Assembly: GCF_001021165.1 (NCBI RefSeq)
Contig: NZ_AZAY01000007.1
Span: 1 to 35,657, forward strand
DNA from: Marinitoga sp. 1197
GTDB lineage: Bacteria; Thermotogota; Thermotogae; Petrotogales; Petrotogaceae
DNA: 35,657 nucleotides
Direction of reading: 5' to 3'
Shown here: positions 947 through 11,803 of the stretch, one piece after another
How positions within the stretch are numbered: the stretch's first letter is position 1
How the letters are laid out: each line of letters begins with the position of its first letter
Translations under genes and position numbers: made by a program
Notes under the pieces: model-generated
What the model was told of the DNA's origin: nothing
Databases searched by the model: none
The model's input: the letters and a program-made list of their open reading frames with translations, nothing else

Positions 947-2901
947 ATGAAGTTATTATACAAATATATGTTATATTTTTTTATTGTAGGATTGATACCA
1001 TTAATTATAATTTTTGGTGTTATACGAATTGAAAACAGAAAAATGGTAAATTTTACATTGGAAGATGAAAAAAATAGAATAAAAAATTCCGTTAATAAAT
1101 TTTTTGGAAATAAATTCGAAGAATTACTACAAATAGCTTATAAATATTCAAATAATAATAATATAAAGAAAGGATTACTAACAAATAATAGAGAATATGT
1201 AAAAAAATATTAGTTCCAGATTTCAATGTTTTAAAAGTTACAGGATTAAAAGTATTAGAATTAGAAGATGCTAATGGAAAAGTTTTTTATAGAGGACATC
1301 ATCCAGGAAAATTTGGTGATGATAAATCTCATATTTCTGGTGTTAAATTAGCTTTAGATGGAACTAAAAATTATGGTTTTGATTTTGGCTCTAGTGGTTT
1401 TGGATTAAGAGCTTTTTATCCAATTATTGTAGAGAATAAGGTAATAGGAATTGTTCAAACGGGAGTTCCATTTTCTTCAGAAACTCTTATGAATTTCAAA
1501 AAAATGATTTCAACTGATATGCTTGTTTATACAAAAAATGGTCTATATGCTGCAACTGAGAAAAAATATCTTTTGCCAGAAAATAAAATAAAGGATTTTT
1601 TCACTGAATTAAAAAATAATGGATCTTTTAAATATACAGTAAAACCTGGCATTTCATTTTTGCTATTTCCTTTAAAAGAACCCAATGGAAAAATAATTGG
1701 ATTATTGGCTGTTTTAGAAGATACGACTAATTTTGTTGCATTGAACTCCGAAATAATGAAATCTATGATTATGACTTTTATTTTTATAATCTTAATAATA
1801 TTATTATTCTCTGTTGTTGTAACAAAAATTCTTATAAAAAAGATTAATCATTTATCTTTTAACATTGAAAAAATTTCAGATGGAGATTTAACCGTTAAAA
1901 TTAAAAGTTCTGGTAAAGATGAAATTGACCATATTTTTTTAAAATTGAAAAGTTTGCTGGATAATTTTAAAAATATTTTAAAATCAGTTCTTGATACAGG
2001 CTTAAAATTAGATAAATCCTCAGAAGAGGTTATTGATGCTGTTATGAAAACAGAAAAAAGTTCTGATGATTTATATTTAAGTGCGAAAAATATAGAACAA
2101 AATATGAATGATATTTCCTCCACAATTGAAGAAATAACTTCTGGAATTGAAGAGATTGAAAGTTCTGCACAAATGGTTTCTGAAAATTCTCAAGAATTAT
2201 CCTCTATAGCAATAGAAAGTATTAAAAATGCTGAAAATGGAACTAAAGGTTTAAATACTATATCAGAAATAATACACAATGCTGTAATTCAATCAAAAAA
2301 TACTGAAAAAAAGGTTGAAGAATTGTTATATTTAACGAGTAATATAGGAGAAATTGTTGATTCTATAAACACAATAACTGAACAAACAAATTTATTAGCT
2401 TTAAATGCTGCTATAGAAGCTGCTAGAGCTGGTGAAGCTGGAAAAGGGTTTGCTGTTGTTGCTGATGAAATTCGAAAATTGGCAGAAGAAAGTAAAAAAG
2501 CAACAGAAAAGATTGCTGAAATATTATTAGATGTTCAAAATAGCGTTAAAGATGTAAATAGCGCAACATTAGAAACTGTTAATATAGTAAATAAAGTTGA
2601 ATCAGGGGCAAAAAATATAAAAGAAAATTTTAGAATCATATTAGAACAAATTGATTTAATAAATAATAAAGTTGAAAATTTAACTGCAACATCGCAAGAG
2701 CAAAGCGCGTCAACAGAAGAGATGGCAGCTGCAATGGATAAAAGTATGAAAAACATTACTGAAATACTTAAACAAATTGAACAAATGGCTGAAATTTCAT
2801 TTAATCAAAAAAATGAAATTTCCATGCTAAAAGAGGTATCTCAAGAATTGAAAAATGATTCAGAAGTATTAAAAGAAAATATTAAAAAATTTAAAATATA
2901 A
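947..2901 (+). pseudogene. methyl-accepting chemotaxis protein with a -1 frameshift at A7 (1201-1207)
   Basis: The product would be a transmembrane chemoreceptor signalling to CheA/CheW, about 651 residues if the frames are joined. The first frame (947-1213) gives an N-terminal membrane helix (about residues 5-25) and the start of a periplasmic sensor domain, then stops at TAG. The second frame is continuous from 1207 and carries the rest of a dCache_3-like sensor ([34 protein letters not shown]), a second membrane helix near 273-297, a HAMP domain, and the cytoplasmic coiled-coil signalling domain. That domain has the conserved tip [20 protein letters not shown] near residue 480. Apart from the frameshift the gene looks intact. 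It may be a sequencing or assembly indel, a phase-variable tract, a fresh pseudogene, or a programmed frameshift, because A_AAA_AAA is a slippery heptamer in the correct phase. No C-terminal CheR-docking pentapeptide is seen. Confidence 0.85.
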
Positions 2902-2941
2902 TTTCCAATAATATAAAGAATGATTTTATATATTATTATAA

Positions 2942-2977
2942 ATTACCAATGCTGGGTTATAACCCAGCATTGGTAAT
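2942..2977. terminator. bidirectional hairpin terminator
   Basis: A perfect inverted repeat with 17-bp arms (ATTACCAATGCTGGGTT and its complement) and two central bases lies between the convergent chemoreceptor and phosphatase genes. AT-rich tracts follow on both sides, so it probably ends both transcripts. Confidence 0.85.
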
Positions 2978-2985
2978 GTTATTTA

Positions 2986-3642
2986 TTAAACTGAGATTAT
3001 TTTATAATTGTTGTTTTTATCAATTCCTAATGCTGATAATTTTCCACCATAAACACATCCTGTATCTATATCTATACTGATAATTTTATTTTTTTCATTT
3101 TTATGAAAATATATTTCATATTTTCCTGTTATATAAAATGTTGGCGTATGTCCATGAACTATAATATAATTTTCATATCTTTTATTTTTCATATAAAATT
3201 CATCTCTTATCCAGAGTAAATCTTTTTCATTTTGATCTGTTAATTTTATTCCATATCTAATTCCCCCATGAACAAATAAATATTTTTGTTCATTTAGTTG
3301 TTCTATATGATATAATTTTAAAGATTTTATAAATTTAAAATATTTTTCTTCTATATTATTATTAAAACTTTTTAAGGTAGCTGATGCCCCATTTCTAAAC
3401 CATACACCTTCTGCATATTTTCCTTTTTTTTCTATATAATCAATCATCATATCTTCATGATTTCCTTTTAAAAAAATGGATCTATTCCTTAATTTCATTA
3501 ATAAATCGAGGACCTTTTTTGAATCCGGTCCCCGATCAATATAATCTCCTAAGAAAATGATTTTATCATTTTCTGGTATTTTATTTATTAATTTTAATAA
3601 TTTTTCATACATTCCATGTATATCTGATATTATCCATATCAT
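2986..3642 (-). CDS. PP1-type serine/threonine protein phosphatase / metallophosphoesterase
   Basis: This 218-residue single-domain metallophosphoesterase resembles bacterial PrpA/PrpB and diadenosine tetraphosphatase-like phosphatases. The metal-ligand motifs are in order: DIHG (7-10), GDYIDRGP (32-39), GNHED (60-64), FVHGGI, and HGHTP near residue 164. It should bind two metal ions and hydrolyse phosphomonoesters. Whether the substrate is a phosphoprotein or a nucleotide cannot be read from the sequence. The gene is last in the minus-strand series with pncB-pdxS-pdxT and a DUF3307-like gene. It starts 1 base after the stop of the DUF3307-like gene, and its weak Shine-Dalgarno sequence (AAAGGT) lies inside that gene's final codons, suggesting coupled translation. 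A strong hairpin follows. Confidence 0.85.
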   Translation of the reverse strand: MIWIISDIHGMYEKLLKLINKIPENDKIIFLGDYIDRGPDSKKVLDLLMKLRNRSIFLKGNHEDMMIDYIEKKGKYAEGVWFRNGASATLKSFNNNIEEKYFKFIKSLKLYHIEQLNEQKYLFVHGGIRYGIKLTDQNEKDLLWIRDEFYMKNKRYENYIIVHGHTPTFYITGKYEIYFHKNEKNKIISIDIDTGCVYGGKLSALGIDKNNNYKIISV

Positions 3643-3643
3643 C

Positions 3644-4261
3644 TTAGAAAATACCTTTCATTATCAATAGCCAGATAGATGATATTATAACACCATAAAT
3701 AGGTGAAAAAATCCATTCTTTGGATTTTTGTTTTACGATAAAAAATCTGTACAATAAACCAACAAATATTGAGATTAATACCCATTCTATTTTAAATTTG
3801 CTTAAAAATATGTATATGGCTAATCTTTCAGAAGCACCTGCTGTATCTTTTATCTGTTTGTCAATGATATTAAATGTTCTTTCAATAAAAGAGCCAAAAC
3901 TTGTTGCCAACATCATTCCAATTAAATAATATATAAATTCATTTGAAATATATGAGTTCATATAAACTTTATAAAATATTAGGTTAATAATCAAAGCACC
4001 TATAAGATATAATATTTCTCTTTTAAAGGTTGTTCCTTTTGTTCTATAAATATCTATAAATATATGATAAGATATTAACAACAAAAAAGCTGTTATTCCT
4101 AATGGTGTTTTTAATGTATCAAATGTAAAAGATAATATAGCTAATATACTCCAAACTATGTGTGTTATTAAATTATTCTTTAATTTTAATTTTTCAGAAT
4201 ATACATTAGAAAATGCATGATCTGCAACAAAATGAGATAAAAATCCATGTAAGGGTATCAT
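3644..4261 (-). CDS. DUF3307-like multipass membrane protein
   Basis: This protein has 205 residues with about five to six hydrophobic helices. The N-terminus (MIPLHGFLSHFVADHAFSNV followed by a charged KLKLKNNLITH segment) resembles the DUF3307 family, which has an early HxxxD-like motif and a later histidine. SYHIFIDIYR around residue 70 fits the second polar patch. The function is unknown. The ATG overlaps the pdxT stop (TAATG), and the phosphatase follows after 1 base, so expression is tied to the cofactor genes. The family call is from motif resemblance only. Confidence 0.55.
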   Translation of the reverse strand: MIPLHGFLSHFVADHAFSNVYSEKLKLKNNLITHIVWSILAILSFTFDTLKTPLGITAFLLLISYHIFIDIYRTKGTTFKREILYLIGALIINLIFYKVYMNSYISNEFIYYLIGMMLATSFGSFIERTFNIIDKQIKDTAGASERLAIYIFLSKFKIEWVLISIFVGLLYRFFIVKQKSKEWIFSPIYGVIISSIWLLIMKGIF

Positions 4262-4839
4262 TATTTCACCTGCTTTTTTGCTACCATTTGTTCTATAAAA
4301 TATTGATGAATTGCAGGATCATCTTCTATTTCTGGATGAAATGAGGCAACTAAAATATTATCCTGTCTAACAAGAACAGGAGCATCTTTGAATTCTATTA
4401 ATTTTTCAATATTTTCTCCATATTTTACTATTTTTGGAGCTCTGATAAATGTAACTTTTAATTTATTTCCCTGAAATTCCAGAATCTCTTCAAAAGAAAA
4501 TACTTGTCTTCCATATGCATTTCTTTCAACATATATATCTATTAATCCCATTGTTTCTTGTTGAGGATAATTAGCAATCCTTTTAGAAACAACTATCATT
4601 CCTGCACATGTTCCAAAAATAGGGAATCCTTCTTTGGCTCTTCTTTTTAATTCTTCCCAAATACCAGTTTTTTTCATTAATTTTGAAATTGTTGTACTTT
4701 CACCACCAGGTATTATTAAACCAGCAACGTCATTTAAGGTTTCTATAGATTTAACTCTAACGGGTGTATGTCCTATTTTTTCAATCATATTTGCATGTTC
4801 TCTAATATCTCCTTGAACAGCTAATACACCTATTTTCAA
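4261..4839 (-). CDS. pdxT: pyridoxal 5'-phosphate synthase glutaminase subunit PdxT
   Basis: Class I glutamine amidotransferase that releases ammonia from glutamine and passes it to PdxS in the DXP-independent route to pyridoxal phosphate. With a TTG start at 4839 the protein begins MKIGVLAVQGD, like its homologues, and has 192 residues. The nucleophile is Cys78 in GTCAGM. PGGEST (44-49) forms the glutaminase loop and SFHPEI near the C-terminus supplies the His-Glu pair. An ATG three codons upstream (4848) is also possible, but the AGAGG Shine-Dalgarno sequence touches it directly, whereas the spacing to TTG is 9 bases. It follows pdxS by 2 bases and its stop overlaps the next start, so it is tightly coupled. 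Confidence 0.95.
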   Translation of the reverse strand: MKIGVLAVQGDIREHANMIEKIGHTPVRVKSIETLNDVAGLIIPGGESTTISKLMKKTGIWEELKRRAKEGFPIFGTCAGMIVVSKRIANYPQQETMGLIDIYVERNAYGRQVFSFEEILEFQGNKLKVTFIRAPKIVKYGENIEKLIEFKDAPVLVRQDNILVASFHPEIEDDPAIHQYFIEQMVAKKQVK

Positions 4840-4841
4840 AC

Positions 4842-5717
4842 TTACCATCCTCTTTCTTGTAAATGAACATCCAATTGGTCTATTTCTAAACCTTCCATTG
4901 CTTCCCCAACATCTTCACTTATTTTTGCTAATTTTTCTGGATCATCATAATGTAATACAGCTTCAACTATAGCTTTTGCCATTTTTTTAGGTTCTTTTGA
5001 TTTAAATATCCCAGAACCTACAAATACACCGTCTGCTCCTAATAGCATCATTAAAGCTGCATCGGCAGGTGTAGCAACTCCACCTGCTGCAAAATTAACT
5101 ACAGGTAGTCTTCCTAATTTTTTAACTTCTGCAACTAAATCAACAGGAGCTCCAATTTGTTTTGCATATGTAACTAATTCTTCTTCTGGCATGTTTTGAA
5201 CTAATCTTACTTCATCCATAACCTGTCTCATATGTTTAACTGCTTCTACAACATTTCCTGTTCCAGCTTCACCTTTTGTTCTAATCATTGCAGCACCTTC
5301 TGCTATTCTTCTTAAAGCTTCACCTAAATTTCTTGCTCCACAAACAAATGGTACTTTATAATCATGTTTGTTTAAATGATATTTGTTATCAGCAGGAGTT
5401 AAAACTTCTGATTCATCTATAAAATCCACACCTAAAGCTTCTAAAATTCTTGCTTCAGCTATATGGCCTATTCTTACTTTTGCCATAACTGGAATTGAAA
5501 CTGCTTCCATTATTTCTTTTATTTTAGAAATACTTGCCATTCTTGCAACGCCGCCTGCCTTTCTAATATCAGCAGGAACTCTTTCAAGTGCCATAACTGC
5601 AACTGCACCAGCTTCTTCGGCAATTTTTGCCTGTTCTGCTGTTGTTACGTCCATAATAACACCATTTTTAAACATTTCTGCAAACCCTTTTTTTACCACC
5701 CATGTACCTTTTTCCAT
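4842..5717 (-). CDS. pdxS: pyridoxal 5'-phosphate synthase lyase subunit PdxS
   Basis: TIM-barrel synthase that condenses ribose 5-phosphate, glyceraldehyde 3-phosphate and ammonia to pyridoxal phosphate. It forms a dodecamer decorated with PdxT. The 291-residue length is standard. The Schiff-base lysine is Lys80 in MAKVRIGH, Asp23 is in the GVIMDV strand, and the second lysine is in RTKGEAGTG. The Shine-Dalgarno sequence GGGAGG lies 8 bases before the ATG. It starts 1 base after the pncB stop and is followed by pdxT. The protein is highly conserved, so the call is secure. Confidence 0.97.
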
Positions 5718-5718
5718 T

Positions 5719-7026
5719 TTATATGCCTCCCTTTTCTTCCCAATATTTTTTTGAAATTGTAATTAATCGGGATAAATCACCTTTTTTTCTTCCAACTTTT
5801 GCACAATGTTTTCCATCTACTTCTACTATATCTGCAGTAAAATCTATTTTTTCTTTTAATAATTTTGAACCAACACCATAACTATCTACGGGAACATCTA
5901 ACGTTTCAAATAATTTAATTTTTTCAGCATCAAATCCTCCAGAAACAAGTATTTTTAGATTTTTTAATCCATTACTATCAAAAATCTGTCTTGCTCTCCA
6001 TACTAATTCTGGATTTACTCCTAATGATGACCTATCTTTTGGTATTACGCTTTTATCCCTGAGACTTCCAGATGTATCAAATCTAACACCCCATATTTTA
6101 TTTTTCCCTTCACCTATTATTATAGATGGATCCGTAATACCTGGCTTAAATGTTTTTCCAGTAATATATTCATAGAATTTCGATACCAATTTTAATGTTG
6201 TTCCAATAACATCATTATCCCAATCTACAAGTACTATTCGATTTACCTTTTCATCAATATGTTTATCAAAAGCTATAGCGGCTTCTGTTGTATCGCCGTC
6301 ATATGATGCAATTAATGCATGAGGGATGGTCCCCATTGATTCAACACCCCAATAATCGGCATTAGCATCTGTTGACACACCAAATGCACCTGCTTTTAAA
6401 GCGGCGTAACCATCAGTAGCCTGTACCCAGAAGTGGTCGAATCTTGCACTGAAAAACAATATGGGTTTCCCATTTGCAACATCTACGACTTTTTTTACAG
6501 CTGTTGCGGTTGATGTGGCCCTTGCAAGTACTCCGAGTAATATTGTTTCTAAATATCCAAAATAAGCTGGATCACCTTCTATAGTAAGAATTGGTTCCAT
6601 ATTATTTGCAATATCACCATCATATAAGGCTTTAACTTCTATTTCATCCCATTTATCTACCCATAAATCGTTTAGCATCATTCTTAAATCCCACTTTTTT
6701 GATGTTATCTTCAAAAGCTCATCTTTATTCATATTATGCGCAGCATTTTGAAGTGCTTTTTCAAGATTTAATATTTGATTAAATAATTCATTTGCTTTTT
6801 CTTCATCTTTATAGTATCCTGTTCCAAATCTTAAAATAGCAAGGGCTTCATCTATTCCAACCACTACACAATCTTTTCTTGGAAAATACTGATAAAGCAC
6901 ATTTACATGTCTGTTGTCTTTTTTTAATACTTCAACGTATCTTGTAAAATACTTATCAGAATAATACCCCATTCTAATTCTGTCTATTGGCACTTTAAAT
7001 ATTTTAGGATGTAATCTTTTTGGCAT
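5719..7026 (-). CDS. pncB: nicotinate phosphoribosyltransferase
   Basis: Converts nicotinate and PRPP to nicotinate mononucleotide in the Preiss-Handler NAD salvage route. The 435-residue protein has the type II phosphoribosyltransferase barrel signatures [34 protein letters not shown] and [17 protein letters not shown], plus a C-terminal [10 protein letters not shown] phosphate-binding loop. The start is placed at the ATG at 7026 because GAGGTGA sits 5 bases upstream of it. The in-frame GTG at 7035 is part of that Shine-Dalgarno sequence. The gene begins 58 bases after ogt and ends 1 base before pdxS, so a joint NAD and vitamin B6 cofactor operon is likely. Confidence 0.93.
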
Positions 7027-7794: not shown

Positions 7795-8619
7795 ATGACT
7801 ACAGGATTTTTAGGTACCTTATTATGGTGGATTTTTATTTTCTACATATTAATGGGACCACAAATGAAGTTTGCACAATTAATTGCAGGAAGAAAAGCTT
7901 TATTATCCTCATTATCGAAAAAAAGAAACTCTACTGTTATTACTTTAATTCACAGACAGGAAAGTATGGGTTTTTTAGGTTTTCCTTTTTATAAATATAT
8001 AAATGTTGAGGATAGTGAAGAGATTTTAAGAGCTATTAGAAAAGCGCCAAAGGATAAACCTATTGATTTAATTATACATACTCCAGGTGGACTTGTTTTA
8101 GCAGCTACACAAATAGCTAAAGCTTTACATGATCATCCAGCCGAAACAAGAGTTATTGTTCCACATTATGCTATGAGTGGTGGAACATTAATTTCTTTAG
8201 CTGCAGATCAAATTATTATGGATAAACATGCTGTGTTAGGTCCTGTTGATCCGCAATTAGGACAAAACCCTGCACCAAGTATTGTTAAAGTTGTAGAGCA
8301 AAAAGGTGTGGACAAGGTTGATGATCAAACATTAATATTAGCAGATGTAGCAAAAAAATCTATATCTCAAGTTCAAAGATTTATTTTTAATGTTTTAAAG
8401 AATAATATGGATGAAGAAAAAGCTAAAGAATTATCTCAAACATTAACTGAGGGAAGATGGACACATGATTATCCAATAACAGTTGAAGAAGCTAAAGAAC
8501 TTGGACTAAATATTTCAATAGATATTCCTGAAGAAGTATATGCACTAATGGATTTATATTCACAACCAATTAGACAAAGAGGAACTGTAGAATTTGTATC
8601 TTATACTAATAAAAAATAG
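7795..8619 (+). CDS. membrane-anchored ClpP-fold serine protease, SDH (SppA-like) family
   Basis: Member of the SDH/serine dehydrogenase proteinase family, related to signal peptide peptidase SppA and ClpP. A single N-terminal membrane helix (about 5-21, FLGTLLWWIFIFYILMG) is followed by the crotonase-like protease domain. HTPGG (95-99) forms the oxyanion region and Ser128 in AMSGGT is the nucleophile. LGPVDPQLGQNPAPS and the TEGRWTHDYPIT segment are typical of this family. The length is 274 residues and GGAGG precedes the ATG. It probably degrades membrane or signal peptides at the cytoplasmic membrane; the real substrate is unknown. It is a single-gene unit ended by the hairpin at 8719-8749. 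Confidence 0.85.
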   Translation: MTTGFLGTLLWWIFIFYILMGPQMKFAQLIAGRKALLSSLSKKRNSTVITLIHRQESMGFLGFPFYKYINVEDSEEILRAIRKAPKDKPIDLIIHTPGGLVLAATQIAKALHDHPAETRVIVPHYAMSGGTLISLAADQIIMDKHAVLGPVDPQLGQNPAPSIVKVVEQKGVDKVDDQTLILADVAKKSISQVQRFIFNVLKNNMDEEKAKELSQTLTEGRWTHDYPITVEEAKELGLNISIDIPEEVYALMDLYSQPIRQRGTVEFVSYTNKK

Positions 8620-8718: not shown

Positions 8719-8749
8719 AAAAGTTCTGAGGATATCCCTCAGAACTTTT
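8719..8749. terminator. bidirectional hairpin terminator between protease and AAA+ ATPase
   Basis: AAAAGTTCTGAGG pairs with CCTCAGAACTTTT around a 5-base loop. A run of T residues follows on each strand. It ends the plus-strand protease transcript and the minus-strand ATPase transcript. Its right end touches the left copy of the 46-bp repeat. Confidence 0.85.
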
Positions 8750-8793
8750 CGGCATAGTCGACAACTTCGACAAATTTCGACTATCTTCGACAA
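8748..8793. repeat. 46-bp TCGAC repeat block, left copy (just after the ATPase stop)
   Basis: The core pentamer TCGAC occurs at 8758, 8767, 8777 and 8787, about one helical turn apart, with a degenerate fifth unit TTCGGC at 8748. The block matches positions 10002-10047 at 44 of 46 bases (differences at 8752 and 8774) at an offset of exactly 1254 bp, in the same orientation. It ends 2 bases from the ATPase stop codon. See the findings for its dyad symmetry. Confidence 0.9.
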
Positions 8794-8795
8794 CT

Positions 8796-9941
8796 TTAAT
8801 TTATATACAAATATTTACTTTTTCCTGAAAGTCTGTAAATTCCATTTTGTTCAATTATTATCCCAGTTTTTAATAATTTATCAAAAATAGAATATGCTGT
8901 AGATCGTGGGAATTTTTTATTTTCTATTGCTTTTTTTAATATTTCTTCTTTCTTACCTGGAAACAAATCTTCGTCTATCATTAATTTTTGTTTTTCTGTC
9001 AAAGAAATTTCATTTAAATATTCATTTACAATATTCTTTATTGTTTCTTCAGCAAACATTTTGTCAATTTTACTTAATTTTTTGGATAATGCTTCAAAAA
9101 CTAACTTTTGAGTTATCCAAAAAGCATCTCTTGGATTACCATCAGAATAATCTACAATTAGGTCTATTACACTTTCATTAAAATAATAAATAAATTCTTT
9201 TATTCTTTTTATAAGAATTTCCTTTATTTCACTATTAGTAAATTCTCTTAAGTATATAATATCTTTTATCACATTTTCTAAATTTCCGCTCTCATTTCTA
9301 TGCATTCTATCAAATTTATATTCTCTATAAATAGAATATGGTAATGAAACCATAACAACAAAACCTTCCTTTTGTAATTCCAATTTTAAATTATCTAAAA
9401 CTAATAAAACTTCTTTTTTGCTTTCTTTATCGAGTTCATCAATTATTAAAACAACCTTTTTATATTTTTTTATCAATTCATCAGTTAATTTATTCAAATA
9501 TTCTTTAGCCTTAAAATAATTAAACCTTGGAGTTTTCTGTTTTTGATTAGATATATCACCATTACCAAAAAATTTAACTCCTATTGCAAAACCTTTTATA
9601 TAAGATATTTCCTCTAAAATCCATTCTTTTATTTCACTGGATATTTCTATATCTTTTTCTGTTTTTGCAGATATATTATATAAAATATCGTATAATATTG
9701 TATCCTGACTTTCTCTTTGAGATAAAGAAATTTTTATAGTATAAGAATCTGTATGTATGTTATTTATAACTGTGGTTTTGCCAATACCAGTCTCCCCACA
9801 TATTCCATATATTCCATATGGTTGATAATTTATAATCAAATTAATCAACTCAAATTCTTTATCTCTATTAACAAGTAAATTTTTATTTTTTTCATCTAAA
9901 GGTTTATCTATAAGTCTTTCTATTATTTTTCCTAATTCCAT
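8796..9941 (-). CDS. Orc1/Cdc6-like AAA+ ATPase with C-terminal winged helix, flanked by direct repeats
   Basis: This is a 381-residue protein of unknown function. Walker A is GETGIGKTT (49-57), and Walker B is VVLIIDE with Asp168-Glu169. A sensor-1-like strand is VVMVSLPYS, and a sensor-2-like SDGNPRDAFWITQ (lid region) recalls Orc1/Cdc6 and other AAA+ initiator ATPases. The last 70 residues (LTEKQKLMIDED ... FPRSTAYSIFDKLLKTGIIIEQNGIYRL) look like a winged-helix DNA-binding domain. There is no membrane segment. The gene is alone on its strand and bounded on both sides by the same 46-bp TCGAC block. A TATAAT -10 lies between the right block and the gene, so the right block covers the -35 region. 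It might be a replication- or partition-like initiator, an autoregulated regulator, or the core of a mobile cassette. These roles are inferred, not shown. Confidence 0.8.
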   Translation of the reverse strand: MELGKIIERLIDKPLDEKNKNLLVNRDKEFELINLIINYQPYGIYGICGETGIGKTTVINNIHTDSYTIKISLSQRESQDTILYDILYNISAKTEKDIEISSEIKEWILEEISYIKGFAIGVKFFGNGDISNQKQKTPRFNYFKAKEYLNKLTDELIKKYKKVVLIIDELDKESKKEVLLVLDNLKLELQKEGFVVMVSLPYSIYREYKFDRMHRNESGNLENVIKDIIYLREFTNSEIKEILIKRIKEFIYYFNESVIDLIVDYSDGNPRDAFWITQKLVFEALSKKLSKIDKMFAEETIKNIVNEYLNEISLTEKQKLMIDEDLFPGKKEEILKKAIENKKFPRSTAYSIFDKLLKTGIIIEQNGIYRLSGKSKYLYIN

Positions 9942-9985
9942 TATTACACCTCTTTGTATAATATTATAATTTATTATTTACATAT

Positions 9986-9991
9986 ATTATA
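9986..9991 (-). promoter_or_regulatory. -10 element of the AAA+ ATPase gene
   Basis: On the minus strand TATAAT (9991 to 9986) lies 44 bases before the ATPase ATG. The expected -35 position (about 10009-10014) has no good hexamer and falls inside the TCGAC repeat block. This is the arrangement expected of a promoter controlled by a protein that binds the repeats. Confidence 0.55.
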
Positions 9992-10001
9992 CCATATTAT
10001 C

Positions 10002-10047
10002 TTCGACATAGTCGACAACTTCGACAAGTTTCGACTATCTTCGACAA
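10002..10047. repeat. 46-bp TCGAC repeat block, right copy (upstream of the ATPase promoter)
   Basis: TCGAC occurs at 10003, 10012, 10021, 10031 and 10041, spaced 9-10 bp. ATAGTCGA (10008-10015) and TCGACTAT (10031-10038) form inverted arms, with AACTT-CGAC-AAGTT (10017-10030) at the centre, so the block is also a quasi-palindrome. It is the near-identical partner of the block at 8748-8793. Confidence 0.9.
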
Positions 10048-10093
10048 TATAAGAAACTCTTAAAAATGGAGTTTCAATTTTCACTGTATCGTA

Positions 10094-10135
10094 TGAAAAA
10101 TAAATAAGACCAGGTAATTTCCTGGTCTTATTTAT
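10094..10135 (-). terminator. hairpin terminator of the kinase-regulator transcript
   Basis: Perfect 15-bp arms (10100-10114 and 10121-10135, GACCAGG/CCTGGTC at the top) surround a 6-base loop. Read on the minus strand the stem is followed by TTTTTC, a normal intrinsic terminator downstream of the response regulator gene ending at 10298. Confidence 0.85.
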
Positions 10136-10297
10136 CCTATGAATTTATTTTTCCCGGATCAAAAACAAAAATTAATAAATCTTTTTTATTAATAGTATTT
10201 TTTTAATATTTACCGCTTATTATTCTATTTATAAGTCTTTTTAGACATCGTATTTGTAGATGTAATATTTAATTTGAAGTATTATGATAATAAAAAA
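10136..10297. other. AT-rich spacer with no recognised feature
   Basis: This 162-base stretch lies between the terminator and the response regulator stop codon. Neither strand shows a coding frame with a ribosome-binding site, a GC-rich hairpin or a repeat. It would be the 3' untranslated part of the kinase-regulator mRNA. Confidence 0.5.
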
Positions 10298-10702
10298 TTA
10301 AAATGAGTTTCTAAAAGCGTTTCTCCATCTTTCTATTTTTGCAAATGAACATTTTAAAATTTCTTCTATTTCTTTTGTTGAAAAAGGTTTTAATATATAA
10401 TCATCTGCACCAGCTTCTATGGCTTCAACAACTCTTTCCATTGTAGAATTTCCTGTAATCATTATTATATGAATTAAAGAGTTTAAATTTTTTACTTTTT
10501 TTAAAAATTCAAAAGCATCTAATCCTGGCATTACAATATCCAATAAAACAACGTGAAATTGATCTTCATTTATTTTTTTTAGAGCAATATCAGCATTTTC
10601 TGCAGTTTCTATTTTTGTGTGTTCGAAATTCATTTCAATATAGTCTTTTAAAACTTCTCTTATTCCAGATTCGTCATCAACTATTAAAATTTTCCATGAC
10701 AT
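10298..10702 (-). CDS. single-domain response regulator (CheY-like receiver)
   Basis: This 134-residue receiver domain has no output domain. The acidic pocket is Asp9-Asp10, the phospho-acceptor is Asp55 in LLDIVMPG, the switch Thr is in IIMITGN, and the conserved Lys is in ILKPF. The C-terminal tail FAKIERWRNAFRNSF goes beyond the usual receiver end and resembles the tail of the second regulator in this island (VERVKRWKTSLGLI). The Shine-Dalgarno sequence AAGGAGGA lies inside the end of the kinase gene, which ends 2 bases upstream, so the pair is co-translated. The partner is presumably that kinase. The output is unknown. Confidence 0.9.
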   Translation of the reverse strand: MSWKILIVDDESGIREVLKDYIEMNFEHTKIETAENADIALKKINEDQFHVVLLDIVMPGLDAFEFLKKVKNLNSLIHIIMITGNSTMERVVEAIEAGADDYILKPFSTKEIEEILKCSFAKIERWRNAFRNSF

Positions 10703-10704
10703 AA

Positions 10705-11703
10705 CTATTCCTCCTTTACTTTTGGAATTTTTAAAATAAATTTTGTTCCCTTTTTAAAATTACTTTCAACGTTGATTTCTATATTATGCTTCATACAAAT
10801 ATTATAAACAAAGAATAATCCATATCCCATACCTCTTTTGGATTTTGTAGTGAAAAATGGTTCAAAAATTCTGTTTATATTTTTATCTGAAATTCCAATG
10901 CCATTATCTTTTATTGTAACAATATAAAATGTAGGTAACTTTTCAAGTTGAATATTGATAATTCCATTTTTATTTGTTTCTTGTATAGCTTCAATTGAAT
11001 TCTCTATGAGATTTGAAAAAACTATCATTAACTCCTGTTTATTTCCGTATATATAATATGAATTATTTTCGTAGTTAAGATTTATTTCAATTTTTGAACC
11101 GGCTTTGTATCTCATGAATTTCACAACACTTTTTAGTATATCTATTAAATTAAGTCTGGATTTAATTTCAGTTCTTTTTACAAGACTTCTGAAAAGATTT
11201 GTTATTTCAATTATTTTGTATAGATTATCAGAAATTAATTTAATATCCTTTTCATATTTTTTATCAATATTTTTTGAAAGCATTTCTGTTTTCATTAAAA
11301 TTACAGATAAAGGATTATTTATTTCATGAAACATCCCAATAATAAGGTTATTTGCTATATTTAGATAATCAAAATCTTTTTGATGATGTATATGTTTAAA
11401 GGTGTATTCAAGTATTGATGAGTGTGTATTTATCATTTTTATAATATATTCTTTTATATTTGTTGGAATATTGTCATCTATATTATAGTAATATTTGTGT
11501 CCAAATATATTAAATTGATATTTTGATTTTTTATATATCGAATAACTGGAAATAAGTTTATAATCAACTAATAAGCTGATAAAATTATCAATTATCTCAC
11601 TCTTGTTGAGTGTATTTAAAGAAATATAAAGTGAAGAAATTTTTAGTGAAAAATCGAGTAATGACTGAAGAATCTCCGAATTATTATTATTTTTTAAATT
11701 CAT
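10705..11703 (-). CDS. soluble sensor histidine kinase
   Basis: Two-component kinase of 332 residues without membrane helices, so it senses a cytoplasmic signal or is recruited by another protein. The N-terminal ~110 residues are a helical/unknown input region. The H-box is FHEINNPL with His126. The HATPase domain shows the N-box NLIENSIEAI, G1 DNGIGI, F-box FEPFFTTK, and G2 GMGYGLF. All catalytic boxes are intact. The ATG at 11703 is preferred because AAAGGTGAT precedes it; a GTG three codons earlier is part of that signal. It is cotranscribed with the receiver protein downstream and is divergent from a second receiver/pseudokinase/HD-GYP set. Confidence 0.92.
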   Translation of the reverse strand: MNLKNNNNSEILQSLLDFSLKISSLYISLNTLNKSEIIDNFISLLVDYKLISSYSIYKKSKYQFNIFGHKYYYNIDDNIPTNIKEYIIKMINTHSSILEYTFKHIHHQKDFDYLNIANNLIIGMFHEINNPLSVILMKTEMLSKNIDKKYEKDIKLISDNLYKIIEITNLFRSLVKRTEIKSRLNLIDILKSVVKFMRYKAGSKIEINLNYENNSYYIYGNKQELMIVFSNLIENSIEAIQETNKNGIINIQLEKLPTFYIVTIKDNGIGISDKNINRIFEPFFTTKSKRGMGYGLFFVYNICMKHNIEINVESNFKKGTKFILKIPKVKEE

Positions 11704-11803
11704 AAAAATCACCTTTATTTTGAAAAATATAGTATATAATTTGGAGTTTCTATGTTCTAATTTTTGTGATATAATTTAAATAAAGATTAATAATATATAT
11801 TAT

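Follow-up and report, generated by a model that had tools for sequence, protein, structure and literature searches.

Same-orientation iteron blocks bracket a lone AAA+ ATPase gene in Thermotogota: a possible cassette of a block-delimited modular element

An AAA+ ATPase gene bracketed by two iteron blocks in the same orientation was identified in a Marinitoga genome, and in nearly all of its intact homologues, too, a block was present at the promoter and a second immediately after the stop codon. We lean towards reading the ATPase unit as one cassette in a modular element delimited by blocks, the iterons of which would be bound by the unit's own AAA+/winged-helix ATPase. Single-block sites, homology breaks at block edges and changes in cassette order between genomes are consistent with this reading.

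Results

The window, i.e. the whole stretch of 35,657 nt that was analysed, is contig G000:C7 of genome G000 (assembly of 2.27 Mb). The ATPase gene (8796-9941, minus strand; 381 aa) is the only gene of a 1.25-kb unit. As described in the initial annotation, two 46-bp blocks bracket this gene in direct orientation, 44 of their 46 bases being identical and 1254 bp separating them. The downstream (D) block (8748-8793, minus strand) lies 2 bp past the stop codon, and the upstream (U) block (10002-10047, minus strand) ends 10 nt before the TATAAT -10 box of the gene (9986-9991, minus strand), so that the -35 position falls within the last iteron. In the orientation of the gene the block reads TTGTCGAAGA TAGTCGAAAC TTGTCGAAG TTGTCGACT ATGTCGAA, a series of five GTCGA iterons that follow one another at about one helical turn (spacings of 10, 10, 9 and 9 in the U block). 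The blocks had been noted as unique in the window, and this was extended to the whole 2.27-Mb assembly, where neither the 46-mer nor an 18-mer core, each searched with up to 3 mismatches, was found anywhere but at these two places. Both were recovered by block model R1 (at 5e-11 and 1.3e-9).

A terminator-like hairpin, AAAGTTCTGAGGATATCCCTCAGAACTTTT (8719-8749), is situated directly outside the D block, and an equivalent hairpin was observed beside the D block in three further Marinitoga genomes (G003, G004 and G005), while G001/G006 have one at their solo block. The flanking chromosomal gene at 7795-8619 (plus strand), ClpP/SppA-type protease-like by eye, adjoins the element in G004 too. The DNA on the U-block side (10048-11712) varies between the window's genome and G003, G004 and G005; the response regulator and histidine kinase-like genes found there (by eye; 10298-11712, minus strand) adjoin the element in the window's genome only, and not in these three. 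An Rfam search of the window matched no known RNA. Elsewhere in the window, coding stretches at 24068-24282/24939-25153 and at 27805-27944/28977-29116 form two further duplicate pairs that have diverged to about 70% identity; they are probably paralogous neighbouring genes.

The ATPase contains a Walker A motif (GETGIGKTT), a Walker B motif (LIIDELDKE), a GNPRD motif and a C-terminal winged-helix-like KRxTAYS region. In Pfam, the window protein passed the cut-offs of AAA_22 (37.4 bits, cut-off 27) and ATPase_2 (34.9 bits, cut-off 33.2). The ATPase_2 model (PF01637) recognised 37 of the 37 aligned members, in which the Walker A lysine and threonines and the Walker B DE were invariant or nearly so, and the winged-helix-like C-terminus was matched by MCM_C in 7 members and by TrmB in 3. 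The gene had initially been labelled Orc1/Cdc6-like. This label is a weak one beside the formal Pfam matches, as the ORC-CDC6-like profile gave a weak partial match in the family, and the orc1/cdc6 model TIGR02928 scored 25.3 bits against a cut-off of 181.3, over residues 145-274 only, which falls short of full-length membership. The nearest named protein match was from Marinitoga lauensis (87% identical). Comparison of the family with solved structures gave sub-threshold or P-loop-only matches and nothing closer; TnsC (7ufi) was sub-threshold against the family profile, with an E-value of 0.27. An AlphaFold prediction from a two-sequence alignment (mean pLDDT 36.7) was discarded.

Homologues of the ATPase were found in 36 of the 121 genomes searched, several genomes having two copies or broken copies. 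At 45 homologous loci, the flanking 350 bp on both sides were scanned for blocks, which in the Thermotogota family consist of about five 9-10-bp iterons. Two good blocks in the same orientation were present at 30 of the 45 loci (L039 being counted with L011), and inverted pairs at none. Homologues without flanking blocks, which the initial annotation had named as evidence against a module, were a few exceptions: the loci with no recognisable second block (L022, L023, L037, L048, L049 and L052) look degraded or truncated. A perfect TATAAT followed within 35 nt of 26 of 33 U blocks, but of only 1 of 32 D blocks. In G077 (contig C1), one ATPase gene was split near residue 70-76, with its pieces (L043 at ~1.843 Mb and L044 at ~1.788 Mb) 54 kb apart; each piece still adjoined its own block, as if a rearrangement had cut the gene.

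That the blocks are a coincidence, or a widespread intergenic repeat unrelated to the gene, is scarcely credible and is already contradicted by the data, although solo blocks do occur in some genomes without the gene. Only two copies are present in the window's genome, and when the 220 bp flanking a gene on both sides were scored for direct repeats, 21 of 27 family genes scored 25 or more, compared with 8 of 342 non-family ORFs of the same DNA. With block models R1 and R2, which were trained on family loci, a block at an E-value of 1e-5 or better was detected in 34 of the 36 genomes having the gene and in 15 of the 85 without an intact or partial ATPase. Moreover, a homologue from another phylum has the same architecture built from a different motif, as described below.

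Two block types were distinguished in Thermotogota, TGTCGA (A-type, 24 cases) and TGTCACA (B-type, 13 cases). These types fall on two well-supported protein clades, one switch of type on the tree accounting for their distribution, and in genomes with two ATPase copies (e.g. G004, G044, G058 and G068) each copy lies beside its own block type. The two clades differ within the winged helix (S347/Q, S351/T, I352/Y), which is suggestive of a role in specificity but proves nothing in this respect: fixed differences are just as dense outside the winged helix (28 of 304 columns) as within it (7 of 77). Outside Thermotogota, genome G132 of another phylum encodes a homologue (family-model E-value of 2.9e-80) with TTCCA iterons in the same orientation, seven upstream and five downstream, at a spacing of 9-11 bp. 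These iterons match neither Thermotogota block model, and none of 500 shuffled versions of the locus reached their density over 60 bp. The layout being retained with unrelated iterons in this one genome, the architecture appears to be more conserved than the repeat sequence. A search of 291 genomes of a second phylum (that of G106) detected no homologue. The ATPase gene tree crosses family lines, with L031 (family f3) placed inside f11 and the Marinitoga loci L045/L046 placed with f10, which suggests horizontal transfer.

Within a locus, U and D blocks shared a median of 42 of 45 bases, compared with 31 between U blocks and 30 between D blocks of different loci of the same type. Concerted evolution of U and D was considered as a universal rule; it holds for many loci and fails in the Thermotoga-like group. 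In this group, U and D form two distinct stable lineages (U-U 45/45, U-D 39/45), so frequent exchange between blocks is not universal.

Comparison of related genomes revealed sites with and without the ATPase. G095 has the order flank-U-ATPase-D-flank, and at the orthologous junction G050 has flank-block-flank, the single block being identical to D. Likewise, at the site that is filled in G004, the ATPase cassette is absent from G001/G006 and exactly one block is left. The empty single-block sites asked for at the outset were therefore found, with the pattern of an att-type site: two direct copies when filled and one when empty. This outcome would also be expected from simple homologous deletion. 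Solo blocks in the Mesotoga-like genomes share a left edge (cttctcgcttt) and a right edge (agtgataaaatctct), and these common edges define the solo state as L-block-R and the filled state as L-block-ATPase-block-R.

Several homology breaks coincided with block edges. The elements of G024, G026 and G027 share about 95% identity from one block to the other and for roughly 20 bp more; beyond this they are unrelated, and their surroundings differ. The element of G058, a genome of family f3, comes from within the Thermotoga-like clade (f11), its homology stopping at the end of the D block, and the B-type homology between G044 and G058 begins at the U block. The order of cassettes was also changed: G090 has Y-block-X-block-ATPase-block, its third block being degenerate yet recognisable, and G058 has Y-block-ATPase-block-X. 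The cassette edge in G058 is not tight, because X starts 545 bp beyond the D block. In the Thermotoga-like group the flank breakpoints lie about 230 bp upstream and about 660 bp downstream, not at the blocks. A jumping element had been suggested in Marinitoga by the differing flanks of G000 and G005 despite 98% protein identity. This was ruled out by G003, G004 and the single-block G001/G006, from which the site is seen to be largely ancestral and its flanks rearranged; the element, being largely at one ancestral site, moves rarely within Marinitoga.

These comparisons bear on two alternatives. It is very unlikely that the blocks are transposon ends served in trans by some transposase still to be found, with the ATPase as a TnsC/TniB/MuB-like helper. 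The AAA_22 membership, the sub-threshold match to TnsC, the TGTC with which the blocks begin and the different surroundings in G024, G026 and G027 would fit such ends. However, transposons of the Tn7/Mu/Tn5053 kind have inverted ends, and the blocks were direct at all 30 two-block loci; no target-site duplication was evident outside the blocks at the empty sites, and no transposase gene accompanies the element. An integrated mini-replicon is also unlikely, if rather less so. In that case the block would be an iteron origin and the ATPase an initiator, Orc1/Cdc6- or DnaA-like in action, and a 1.25-kb block-promoter-gene circle would have entered by a single crossover at a resident block, thereby duplicating it. 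The C-terminal winged helix of the AAA+ protein, the iterons of ~10 bp at the promoter of its gene, the weak partial matches to TIGR02928, MCM_C and the ORC-CDC6-like profile and the single-block sites would agree with this origin. The D-side copy may extend into a decayed promoter at L014-L016, L019 and L020, as expected of a duplicated block-promoter unit. Against this, no ATPase homologue was found in plasmid, phage and virus collections (PLSDB, INPHARED and IMG/VR), so that a plasmid or virus origin of the element was rejected; the elements were chromosomal in every case seen, no free circle was seen, and no AT-rich unwinding element or replication partner was identified. Extra blocks within one chromosome would, in addition, mean extra origins.

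Such extra blocks were found kilobases away from ATPase copies, around accessory genes. G027 has five identical blocks across two contigs, G024 four blocks over 9.4 kb, and G069 four B-type blocks over 13 kb with no ATPase. The initial annotation had proposed a self-contained module able to excise. The anatomy was borne out, with the gene plus two blocks as one module and with single-block empty sites; as other cargo, away from the ATPase gene, is likewise delimited by blocks, however, the unit is often a cassette within an array and not always a solitary module. Genes between blocks included the PADLOC defence families HEC-01A/B, AriA/AriB-like (PARIS-like), HEC-02A and AbiLi/PDC-M38, as well as ATPase_2/DUF234, AAA_14/DUF4143, radical SAM and MFS genes, and Cas10/RAMP genes were found near the blocks of G058 and G044. 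Two large between-block ORFs (L147:11966-14119, 717 aa, and L151:5939-9454, 1171 aa) matched neither Pfam (E 1e-4) nor PADLOC (E 1e-6) and are candidate uncharacterised cargo, possibly defence genes. At L155, two near-identical large ORFs (2705-4297 and 4873-6453; VKKLPIGINDYKQIIEGNYIYVDKTRY...) lie in tandem just downstream of a B-type element. The same accessory region, in L147 and L148 (G027), is also crowded with numerous other dispersed repeats, about 150-220 bp long and intergenic, which are independent of the blocks.

The blocks could instead be operators, with the ATPase as an autoregulator, perhaps of neighbours too, and with the array features and single-block sites produced by passive homologous recombination. 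The U block is indeed locked to the ATPase promoter, protein and block co-segregate, and rare deletions of the RecA type can occur between repeats of 45 bp. This transcription module is nonetheless distinctly unlikely: the D block lies 3' of the gene and almost never precedes a TATAAT, yet is nearly always kept, G132 included. In addition, several cargo-associated blocks point into gene 3' ends and not promoters (L147, L151), and regulation alone does not explain the block-edge homology breaks and the changes in cassette order.

Discussion

From the two-sided architecture, the match of iteron type to protein clade, the single-block sites, the block-edge junctions and the cassette reordering, which the genome comparisons show, we infer how a block-delimited cassette might work. 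Each block would be an array of about five 10-bp iterons bound by the gene's own ATPase, and the position of the U block at the promoter suggests that the ATPase probably also controls its own expression. Assembled on the iterons, the ATPase might hold two blocks side by side for a recombinase, which would be the host homologous machinery or an enzyme yet to be identified. Active excision, by recombination of same-orientation blocks, would remove a cassette and leave one block; integration at a block would add or reorder cassettes. Both outcomes were seen in the comparisons.

Host homologous recombination could be sufficient for the recombination step, and between 45-bp repeats it could explain several of the outcomes without the ATPase. 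Alone, it would not explain the long retention of both blocks or the joint change of iterons and protein. The infrequent movement in Marinitoga, the stable U and D lineages of the Thermotoga-like group, the flank breakpoints away from the blocks in that group and the loose edge of X in G058 count against the block-delimited cassette, as does the fact that no recombinase or transposase was noticed in connection with the blocks.

It is possible, and is put forward tentatively, that these elements represent an undescribed class of mobile cassette, in which a lone AAA+ ATPase binds the iterons and, without its own integrase or transposase, defines and mobilises cassettes that are bounded by same-orientation blocks and carry anti-phage defence genes, the architecture being kept across phyla while protein and iterons change together. 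The initial annotation had recognised no described system with this layout, and a literature search, mostly outside subscription journals, likewise found no description of a block-bracketed ATPase; given this coverage, the novelty is provisional. If true, cassettes would be shuffled here without any dedicated recombinase in sight, which might explain how thermophilic bacteria put together and exchange their defence genes. Because iteron type and protein clade co-segregate, natural combinations of protein and block, both matched and mismatched, are at hand for binding assays, and the block is a handle for finding unrecognised cargo, as at least two large between-block ORFs match no Pfam or PADLOC family.

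Among known systems, integron arrays similarly have tandem cassettes parted by recombination-site-like repeats in the same orientation, with loss, gain and reordering of cassettes and with accessory cargo. Integrons, however, rely on an integrase and on imperfectly palindromic attC hairpins, whereas here the sites are iteron arrays; no integrase tied to the array, such as an IntI-type tyrosine recombinase, was recognised by eye among the ORFs next to the blocks. The cargo units here are several kb with their own promoters, and the only block-linked gene is that of the AAA+ ATPase. A-type blocks are direct iterons, and not the hairpin-forming imperfect inverted repeats of attC. Some B-type blocks are partly self-complementary, since they match their own model on both strands (L151:13532-13576 and L158:2153-2198, positions 2-36), which A-type blocks did not show; their layout is not attC-like.

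The AAA+ transposition regulators TnsC, TniB, MuB and IstB are also ATPases of the broad AAA_22 group tied to moving DNA segments. Here, in contrast, there is no transposase or TniQ-like partner, the end blocks are direct and not the inverted terminal repeats of Tn7/Mu/Tn5053-type elements, the iteron type matches the protein clade, and the 1.25-kb unit, consisting of the ATPase gene only, encodes neither a DDE transposase nor an integrase. The archaeal-type ATPase_2 proteins, with or without DUF234/DUF4143, share the ATPase domain that was recognised in every aligned member; this subfamily differs from ATPase_2 at large in its winged-helix tail and flanking iteron blocks, and the ATPase_2/DUF234 and AAA_14/DUF4143 proteins occur here as between-block cargo without block pairs of their own. 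Iteron initiators (plasmid Rep, DnaA and archaeal Orc1/Cdc6 with ORB sites) likewise place an ATPase/winged-helix gene beside helically phased direct repeats overlapping the promoter. In this family, the blocks are on both sides of the gene, the location is chromosomal throughout and membership is a weak partial match. While failing those defining features of each that could be tested, the arrangement appears, on this analysis, to join the outcome of an integron array to the protein and site of an iteron initiator.
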